Position numbers and translations under genes: made by a program. Below, one piece after another: positions 4,747-10,929 of a stretch of 33,926 nt of DNA (position 1 is its first letter; every line of letters begins with the position of its first letter). Source of the stretch: a virus; IMG/VR virus record IMGVR_UViG_3300037882_000458, positions 1 through 33,926 of that record; one strand, written 5' to 3'. A model generated the notes under the pieces. It did not search any database. It had not been told where the DNA came from and was given only the letters and a program-made list of their open reading frames with translations.

Positions 4747-4904
4747 TGCCATTTATATTAATGATACTTTTTTCCGTAATGATTGGATGCTCATCTGTAG
4801 TTTCAACCGCTTCATATAATTACTGTATAGGTAATTCACAAACTGTTGATATTGCTAAGCAATGCCAAGGGGATGAATCTTTACAAGACGGAGATAAAAA
4901 ATGA
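4743..4904 (+). CDS. Small predicted lipoprotein
   Basis: 53 residues starting MMPFILMILFSV. A hydrophobic signal is followed by the lipobox VMIGC, so processing before Cys16 would give a mature lipid-anchored peptide of about 38 residues with two further Cys. Its start overlaps the previous stop as ATGATGA and its end overlaps the next ATG as ATGA. A phage lipoprotein made early might act in superinfection exclusion, but that is a guess from type and position only. Confidence 0.65.
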   Translation: MMPFILMILFSVMIGCSSVVSTASYNYCIGNSQTVDIAKQCQGDESLQDGDKK

Positions 4905-5074
4905 AACTAGAAATGACAGACACATGCGGCGATTTAACTATCACCATATCAGAGAACGAAATCAATATGGCGCGCAATGGCAGTCACTTTGATTTATACT
5001 TTGAAGAAATTGATATGTTAAGGGTTATGATTGAACGCTACAAATCATCATTAAAAGAAGCGCATGGGGGGTAG
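4901..5074 (+). CDS. Small hypothetical protein
   Basis: 57 residues (MKLEMTDTCGDLTITISE...). Beta-rich N-terminus, then a helix FEEIDMLRVMIERYKSSLKE. It starts inside the previous stop (ATGA) and its end touches the next gene. No family recognised. Confidence 0.65.
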   Translation: MKLEMTDTCGDLTITISENEINMARNGSHFDLYFEEIDMLRVMIERYKSSLKEAHGG

Positions 5075-6845: not shown

Positions 6846-7197
6846 ATTGGAAGTCGGTAAGTGTTATAAAACACGCGATGGGCGCAAAGCAAAGTGCGTT
6901 CATATTCATGAAACTGGCAACCCCCATAGTAGGTGCATTGTTGTATTTGACAACCCTGCGCGGACTTTATCATATAGTGAGGCTGGCTATATTTATCCAT
7001 GGGATACTGATGACACAATCGTTTCCGAATGGGTAGAGCCAAAACAATTCAAATACGATCTTGCCGTATTTGAGTGTATAACCATTGACGGCGAGAAAAT
7101 TTATTATTTGCAAGATTTAAGTCGTTTGGACACGGTTGGATTAAATGCCATTGTTGCAAAACGTACAATCACAATTACAGAAGGCGATGGGCTATGA
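6838..7197 (+). CDS. Conserved phage hypothetical protein
   Basis: 119 residues. The N-terminus LEVGKCYKTRDGRKAKCVHI resembles a beta-barrel domain common in phage proteins of unknown role (G-x-x-Y-x-T-R-D-G-x-K-A). A second half VFECITIDGEKIYYL follows. GGAGG precedes the ATG. Function unknown. Confidence 0.7.
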   Translation: MIKLEVGKCYKTRDGRKAKCVHIHETGNPHSRCIVVFDNPARTLSYSEAGYIYPWDTDDTIVSEWVEPKQFKYDLAVFECITIDGEKIYYLQDLSRLDTVGLNAIVAKRTITITEGDGL

Positions 7198-9382: not shown

Positions 9383-9718
9383 ATGTCCCACCTACTAAAA
9401 CACAAATACGCGCAATATTTAGCCCGTACATTGATTTCAAAAGAGGATTGGGACATACTGCGCCCAAAACGTGATAAGGCATCTATGAAGCGAAAATGGC
9501 TTATTGTTATAGCTATGATTGACAAGGGAGTTTCGCAAAATTTAATCGCCACGGTACTTGACACGGATTACAAAAACATACAATATTGGATACGTGACCA
9601 ATTGGATTATGCCAGAACTATGAAGCGAAGGAATATCCGTTTATCGCGTAATGGTTTGGCAGAGTTTCAGTTGTGGGCGGAAAGCCAATCGAATCATACT
9701 GTGCCTATTGGGCTCTAG
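9383..9718 (+). CDS. HTH DNA-binding protein, last gene of the early block
   Basis: 111 residues. Residues 20-70 form a three-helix DNA-binding unit: KEDWDILRPKRDKASMKRKW, IVIAMIDKGVSQNLIATVLD, then DYKNIQYWIRDQ as the likely recognition helix. The C-terminus is basic (TMKRRNIRLSRN). Such a domain is found in replication initiators, TrpR/DnaA-like and transposase-like HTH proteins; I cannot assign one. Its place, last before the structured RNA and the switch to the opposite strand, suggests control of the late region or of that RNA. This is inference. Confidence 0.62.
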   Translation: MSHLLKHKYAQYLARTLISKEDWDILRPKRDKASMKRKWLIVIAMIDKGVSQNLIATVLDTDYKNIQYWIRDQLDYARTMKRRNIRLSRNGLAEFQLWAESQSNHTVPIGL

Positions 9719-9783
9719 ATTCCCTGACATAAGCGCAGGGTTTTGTCCCAACCGTAAGGCGGACACGCGAGAACACAGTATGA

Positions 9784-9894
9784 TTGGACGGGTTAGTGTG
9801 AATGTGTTAGCACGGGAAAGCCGAGACATGGTGAAACATGGAGTAGGAAACAAAATGCCTAGAGGTGGTTCGATTCCATCACTCGTCCAAGCCA
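9784..9894 (+). ncRNA. tRNA-like domain with T arm and encoded CCA
   Basis: TTGGACGGGT (9784-9793) pairs with ACTCGTCCAA (9881-9890) over 10 bp with one G-T. The hairpin GGTGG-TTCGATT-CCATC (9864-9880) lies directly against the 3' strand, with the 7-base loop of a standard T arm, and GCCA follows the stem at 9891-9894. TA at 9794-9795 and GTGT/GCAC (9796-9799 with 9810-9813) resemble positions 8-9 and a D stem. There is no canonical anticodon arm in the 50 bases between, so it is not a normal tRNA. Confidence 0.55.
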
Positions 9895-9899
9895 TTCTT

Positions 9900-9974
9900 A
9901 GTTAGCTATCGGCAGGGTTGTATATGCCGTTTACGATAAAACCCCTTTAATGGGGAATAATACGATAGCTAACT
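9900..9974 (+). repeat. 12-bp stem domain with two inner hairpins
   Basis: AGTTAGCTATCG (9900-9911) and CGATAGCTAACT (9963-9974) are perfectly complementary. Inside lie CGGCA/TGCCG (9910-9914 with 9925-9929), which competes with the last two outer pairs, and CCCC-TTTAAT-GGGG (9942-9955). TACGATA occurs at 9932 and again at 9961, so the 5' strand has a second, weaker partner. Confidence 0.6.
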
Positions 9975-10064
9975 TGGACTGGCGGCGTGGATAGGACACG
10001 CATAGAGTTACAGTACCCTCGAAAATAAAAACTGATAGCAGGTATCAAGCCCTGCCCAGTCCAA
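9974..10064 (+). repeat. Cloverleaf-like domain closed by a 9-bp stem
   Basis: TTGGACTGG (9974-9982) pairs with CCAGTCCAA (10056-10064). Inside are GCGTG-7-CACGC (9985-10001), CAGT-16-ACTG (10011-10034) and GCAGG-8-CCTGC (10038-10055), the last stacked directly on the closing stem as a T arm would be. Its loop TATCAAGC looks like a T loop with one extra A. The closing stem shares the TTGGAC/GTCCAA sequence with the tRNA-like domain. Confidence 0.55.
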
Positions 10065-10070
10065 CTAATA

Positions 10071-10880: not shown

Positions 10881-10929
10881 TAAAAAAGAAACCCGCCAAG
10901 GTTACGCATTGTGAAGAGGCGTGGCGGGT
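10880..10929 (-). terminator. Intrinsic terminator after the endolysin gene
   Basis: ACCCGCCA (10891-10898) and TGGCGGGT (10922-10929) form an 8-bp GC-rich stem; on the minus strand it is followed by TTTCTTTTTTATT. The loop of 23 bases is larger than usual but has an inner CGC/GCG pairing. Confidence 0.7.

Follow-up and report, generated by a model that had tools for sequence, protein, structure and literature searches.

Structured elements of tRNA topology form a widespread phage family with a member in the convergent gene gap of a 33.9-kb phage fragment

Transfer RNAs and several RNAs that resemble them are the closest described counterparts of the elements considered here. Canonical tRNA and tRNA-Sec (RF00005, RF01852) share with them a 7-bp stem, a 2-nt linker, a D-arm and a stacked 5-bp T-arm, and the tRNA elbow is read by RNase P and other factors. 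In tmRNA a tRNA-like half lacks the anticodon arm and a large insert stands in for the remainder. Comparable small phage RNAs include the T4 stable RNAs C and D (species 1 and 2 RNA), which come from a tRNA cluster and of which RNA C bears a tRNA-like T-arm at its end. The tRNA clusters of Vequintavirinae, Justusliebigvirus and Schitoviridae contain units of about 108 nt with an odd arm at the anticodon position and a long insert. GOLLD and ROOL are phage RNAs of unknown function that often occur near tRNA islands (PMC12286853). They are the nearest in setting to the family described below but are far larger and folded differently.

The DNA analyzed (hereafter the window) is a 33.9-kb phage fragment (33,926 nt) from an IMG/VR virus record. 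Its rightward early block ends at an ORF spanning 9383–9718, and its leftward late block encodes spanin/holin-like ORFs, an amidase, and tail and virion proteins. A gene-free structured region of 347 bases occupies the gap between these convergent blocks and contains two tRNA-like units (units 1 and 2) on either side of an 11–12 bp hairpin (Table 1). All the helices listed by a first-pass annotation of this region are present in sequence and fold, and the strands TTGGAC (9784–9789 and 9974–9979) and GTCCAA (9885–9890 and 10059–10064) lie where it had placed them. Two overlapping 84-aa ORFs across unit 1 look mechanical.

Table 1. Structured features of the intergenic region, with positions in the window
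Feature	Position	Strand	Basis	Remark
Hairpin CCCTG...CAGGG followed by TTTT	9722..9744	+	Sequence, fold	Possible weak early-operon terminator
GUAA-capped (GNRA-type) hairpin	9744..9765	+	Fold	
Unit 1, tRNA-like	9784..9894	+	Model R2, built without the window, 32.3 bits, E 7e-7; tRNA-Sec 27.8 bits, under the gathering score	
11–12 bp hairpin between the units	9900..9974	+	Fold z −4.0	
Unit 2, member of the new family	9974..10064	+	Window-free model R3 64.9 bits, E 7.2e-14; covariation in 80 sequences	
Terminator-like hairpin with T-run	10026..10064	-	Terminator scan 10056–10037 (−); minus-strand fold	

By energy alone the whole region is moderately unusual (fold z −2.4), with sub-domain values of −1.3 for unit 1 and −2.9 for unit 2 beside that of the central hairpin. 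The decisive evidence for structure is the covariation in relatives, together with the recovery of both units by models built without the window. The first hairpin (5-bp stem) lies directly 3′ of the stop codon of ORF 9383–9718 and is absent from the terminator scan output. The GUAA-capped hairpin has no relatives, and the fold score of the 5′ part (z −0.57) does not show significance. The hairpin between the units contains a perfect 12-bp stem (9900–9911/9963–9974), for which no homologues were found. T9974 is needed both by its last pair and by the perfect 9-bp stem of unit 2 (9974–9982/10056–10064), so that the two compete.

Unit 1 is built on a 10-bp stem (TTGGACGGGT/ACTCGTCCAA, 9784–9793 with 9881–9890, one G-U) that corresponds to a 7-bp tRNA acceptor, GACGGGT/ACTCGTC, lengthened by TTG/CAA. 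Further tRNA features are T8 and A9, a D-arm (9796–9813), a T-arm with canonical loop (GGTGG-TTCGATT-CCATC, 9864–9880) and CCA at 9892–9894 directly after G9891, which takes the place of G73. A T-arm on a 10-bp stem followed by CCA is what the first-pass annotation had reported, and it is seen here. Both units differ from tRNA and tRNA-Sec in lacking a canonical anticodon arm: unit 1 has a long insert without a canonical anticodon loop, and a 5-bp anticodon stem with a 7-nt loop and T33 could be read from the sequence of neither unit. The ARAGORN and Rfam checks that the annotation had proposed gave no tRNA call in the window, a unit 1 score below the tRNA-Sec gathering threshold of 47 bits (E 3.1e-5 in the record with the tRNA-Sec model alone), and no match for unit 2. 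tmRNA (ARAGORN) and GOLLD and ROOL (Rfam models) were likewise unmatched in the window.

Searches with T-arm-plus-acceptor patterns of unit 1 returned no relatives, or mainly ordinary tRNAs. In a blastn comparison with phages its T-arm was matched in Salmonella phage UTK0002, within a tRNA cluster whose matching part is unannotated. Five tRNA-like units without T33 and with a long insert, from Vequintavirinae and Schitoviridae phages, served to build a covariance model (R2), which scores unit 1 at 32.3 bits, against 25.7 for the best ordinary tRNA and 81.6 for a clear relative (phage outra). Unit 1 shares its type of T-arm with these cluster units, whereas its stem is extended to 10 bp. Unit 1 is tRNA-derived and only loosely tied to the tRNA-like units of coliphage tRNA clusters. 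A phage attachment site formed by the 3′ end of a host tRNA gene had been considered as a candidate, but the paired 5′ half of unit 1 argues against it.

Long-insert tRNA-like units lacking T33 occur in the tRNA clusters of Salmonella, Erwinia, Raoultella, Cronobacter and Escherichia phages (L162:1421–1530, L164:801–910, L165–L167 at about 802–909, and L168:628–735). They are mostly unannotated, and one is annotated as a suppressor tRNA (Erwinia phage Hena1).

The T-arm of unit 2, with a loop one base longer than that of unit 1, had escaped the first-pass annotation. The closing stem is TTGGACTGG/CCAGTCCAA, with a core of 9976–9982/10056–10062 that delimits the unit core (9976–10062). It is followed by CG (9983–9984), a D-arm GCGTG-GATAGGA-CACGC (9985–10001), an insert of 36 nt (10002–10037) and a T-arm GCAGG-TATCAAGC-CCTGC (10038–10055). 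Unit 2 departs from tRNA and tRNA-Sec by its 8-nt T-loop and by the absence of an encoded CCA after it.

Whole-region patterns and blastn yielded almost no relatives. The upstream gene (9383–9715), the spanin-like ORF and the endolysin, used as baits, retrieved no close locus relatives carrying the RNA, and blastn of the region against plasmids gave no match. Against phages it gave just five short matches, two of which opened the route to relatives. One of the phage matches is an exact 23-nt match over the unit 2 T-arm, in an unannotated gap of Alcaligenes schitovirus QDWS595, where the T-arm is identical to that of unit 2 and the closing stem differs yet pairs (AAGGCGG/CCGCCTT). A pattern of the T-arm only, containing neither D-arm nor closing stem, was run over IMG/VR and gave at least 120 matches. 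These loci, pooled with the matches in named phages and the window, amount to 122 distinct stretches among the matches listed. At least 88 relatives parse directly in the order 7 nt, C(G/A), 5-bp D-arm, insert, T-arm and a final 7 nt that complement the first, and these form 6 or all of the 7 closing-stem pairs. About 26 more stretches are recognized by a covariance model (R1), for a total of at least about 114 of the 122.

The architecture common to these elements comprises a variable closing stem of at least 7 bp, CG or CA, a D-arm, an insert and a T-arm stacked directly on the closing stem. The D-arm loop is GA(A/T)GGA or a close variant, with GG in most members. The insert, of 36–174 nt, replaces the anticodon arm. 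The T-arm consensus is GCNGG-TATCAAGC-CCNGC, its 8-nt loop usually being TATCAAGC. In an alignment of 80 sequences 99.0% of cells are paired, the covariation score is 0.553 (0.123 in shuffles), and structures slid by 1–3 columns pair in merely 26–40% of cells. Both sides change in 6 of the 7 closing-stem pairs, 4 of the 5 D-stem pairs and the single T-stem pair that varies, and the closing stem contains few G-U pairs, although some are present. Changes that break the stems had been named by the first-pass annotation as evidence against its RNA; the relatives show the opposite, with changes that preserve the stems (267 cells with double-sided changes vs. 58 in shuffles).

Membership was also approached from the other arm. 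With a bait made of the D-arm only, the fold was complete at 83 of 99 sites in the fetched loci, and in shuffled sequence the bait itself did not occur. The T-loop at these sites is TATCAAGC in 77, with AATCAAGC, CATCAAGC and TATCAAGT among the others. Variants retain TC and A, as in TGTCGAAA, the loop of the second tandem unit of locus L292. The T-loops of the family can be read as that of tRNA (TTCRANN) enlarged by one base, which follows the first T. A site in L183 with a 9-nt loop is probably a chance match. A further model (R3), made from 25 relatives with the window left out, finds unit 2 at 9976–10065 as its sole match in the window, at the score given in Table 1. Applied to a further 1.0 Mb from phages and bacteria, it had no other match, the single hit (L001) being the window itself. 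The 17-nt D-arm of unit 2 recurs identically in two relatives (L209 and L237). Unit 1 has no match to R3 and is not a member. These results place unit 2 in a widespread phage-borne family of structured elements with tRNA topology, and that unit 2 belongs to a real, covarying family is virtually certain.

A reading with no special function would see in the region ordinary or decaying tRNA genes plus a terminator of the late operon. The weak tRNA-Sec match of unit 1 and the overlap of unit 2 with a terminator-like hairpin on the minus strand agree with it. It is nevertheless very unlikely, as ARAGORN makes no call, neither unit has a canonical anticodon arm, and compensatory changes maintain the stems of the unit 2 family in phages without the T-run of the terminator.

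On the minus strand at 10037–10056, an intrinsic-terminator-like hairpin of the late transcripts sits inside unit 2. The larger minus-strand hairpin of Table 1 may be placed to end the leftward late transcripts, and the same DNA could serve both strands.

The repeated strands had been interpreted in the first-pass annotation as a two-state RNA, in which TTGGAC and GTCCAA exchange partners between two side-by-side domains and one structure nested around the central hairpin. The strands of units 1 and 2 are indeed interchangeable, and the pseudoknot-free optimum of 9784–10066 (−88.4 kcal/mol) pairs 9784–9789 with 10059–10064, mixing in half of the nested scheme. The full nested scheme, however, is less favorable than the local one by 4.3 kcal/mol (−82.3 vs. 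−86.6 kcal/mol). Energies alone cannot settle the matter, and it is on the relatives that the idea fails: most are single-unit yet keep the local closing stem by compensatory change, and two mutually exclusive folds conserved in relatives were not found. In one locus (L204) two units with the same ends lie about 2 kb apart, so that common ends need no switch. The TTGGAC/GTCCAA repeats are accounted for by two tRNA-like units sharing their end sequence; the switch is not supported, and we give it hardly any credence.

Second or tandem units are present, as in the window, in L204, L281, L289 and L292. The two L204 units (2649–2778 and 4810–5009, minus strand) have the closing stem TACCGAG/CTCGGTA in both and inserts that differ, a situation comparable to the TTGGAC common to units 1 and 2 of the window.

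Named carriers of the family include the Alcaligenes phage QDWS595, Caulobacter phage DMCA, Komagataeibacter phage phiKX1, Acidovorax phage AP1 and the Pseudanabaena cyanophage Pan3, and the named hosts are alpha- and betaproteobacteria and cyanobacteria. The T-arm pattern occurs in 5 of 398 Pseudomonadota genomes (none for the reversed control), three of the five being true members. One family member used as query gave no match in complete E. coli genomes, and model R1 gave none in 14 bacterial genomes among the matches listed. Neighboring genes vary and no constant protein partner was found among the family loci; those for terminase, portal and HNH proteins occur most often. At 12 of 88 loci tRNA genes are found within 1 kb, compared with 3 in random windows. 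An upstream promoter search gave a weak −10-like signal and no conserved promoter. Orientation relative to flanking genes, based on simple ORF calls, is random, which argues against a cis leader and for a stand-alone element; in several annotated phages the element stands where a block of co-directional genes ends.

Rfam 15 contains no match to unit 2 up to E 10, nor to the relatives' units examined, except for a tRNA-like gene of Roseobacter phage DSS3P8. T4 rnaC and rnaD (L296) are matched by neither R2 nor R3. The covariation of the unit 2 family and its absence from Rfam 15 bear out the first-pass description of an undescribed phage structured RNA with a tRNA-like T-arm. No description of the family was found in the open literature, which was the scope of the search. 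Neither Rfam nor the phage annotations examined contain this element, which compensatory mutations preserve in phages of very different kinds. It would take its place with T4 RNAs C and D and GOLLD and ROOL among the phage RNAs of unknown role beside tRNA genes. A covariance model, more than 100 members and named cultured phages make its expression, partner and effect directly testable.

In an unannotated kilobase of phage DSS3P8 (L172:1–1019) a GOLLD RNA is followed by a tRNA-Pro-like gene, whose 8-nt T-loop is TATCAAGC, and then by a tmRNA. The tRNA-Pro-like gene is not a clear family member.

An anticodon-less tRNA shape in very different phages points to a common target in host tRNA biology. 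The constant part of the family is the elbow, with GG in the D-loop of most members, and the T-loop. Without an anticodon arm the elements cannot decode, so that any effect would have to come through factors that bind tRNA. We infer each step of such an action: transcription, elbow formation, binding of tRNA factors and a role in infection. The elements would be transcribed as small stand-alone RNAs, their D-loop/T-loop elbow would mimic that of tRNA, and host elbow readers, most plausibly RNase P, would bind them and trim some members. The variable half would supply a member-specific function, and the effect would be exerted in trans during infection by occupying or recruiting tRNA-binding factors. 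To this statement as a whole, a tRNA-topology family whose members act as stand-alone elbow mimics through the host tRNA-binding machinery, we assign a probability of roughly 0.5. More tentatively, the elements may form a class of tRNA mimics with an elbow and no anticodon arm, carried by many unrelated phages, that engages a conserved elbow-reading host factor and possibly serves as a decoy for tRNA-directed defense; this is conceivable, though we lean against it.

The ends and the insert of the elements bear on how they would be handled. The CCA-ended mimic proposed by the first-pass annotation applies to unit 1 and does not extend to the unit 2 family, in which a 7-bp stem followed by NCCA is found in 2 of 89 members, about the chance level. 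The closing stem extends at least 4 bp further in 22 of the 89, and this, with the lack of an encoded CCA, fits poorly with uniform processing of a tRNA end. The commonest bases at positions −1 and 73 are T (42/89) and A (46/89), which RNase P would tolerate. A crossing helix in the insert reaches rank 0.05 or better in 18%, a modest enrichment, and the insert half is possibly pseudoknotted. The family differs from tmRNA in that no conserved tag reading frame was seen in its inserts.

Some inserts hold a tRNA or tRNA-like sequence (L261:6825–7013, L248:3748–3883 and L277:3772–3907); that of L261 includes a tRNA-Pro at 6872–6944.

The same tRNA topology, the bases at −1 and 73 and, in several annotated phages, the position where a co-directional block of genes ends would also suit a processing signal, in which the fold marks where RNase P cuts longer phage transcripts and releases an RNA that is itself inert. 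The lengthened closing stems and the overall random orientation to neighbors are at odds with such a signal, for which a large variable insert would be needless, and we regard it as unlikely. A DNA element, that is, a packaging, recombination or nicking site folded as single-stranded DNA or bound by protein, would explain the random orientation, the terminase, portal or HNH genes near a number of loci and the scarcity of G-U pairs in the closing stem. It is quite unlikely, since the conserved loops are of tRNA type (D-loop GG; T-loop T-N-TC-R-A), the 7-2-D-...-T-7 spacing is that of tRNA, tRNA genes are more frequent in the vicinity than for random windows, and G-U pairs are not wholly absent. 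The elbow mimic acting as a stand-alone RNA is the reading that we prefer.

A second RNA was noticed in the lysis region of the window. At 10891–10928 (minus strand) an abiF RNA (RF03085, 46.6 bits) scores above gathering; a promoter-like site immediately precedes it and a T-run follows. AbiF antitoxin RNAs have been described (PMC12373285). The record encodes no detectable Abi_2/AbiF protein, and the RNA could be a phage-borne, antitoxin-type decoy against AbiF.
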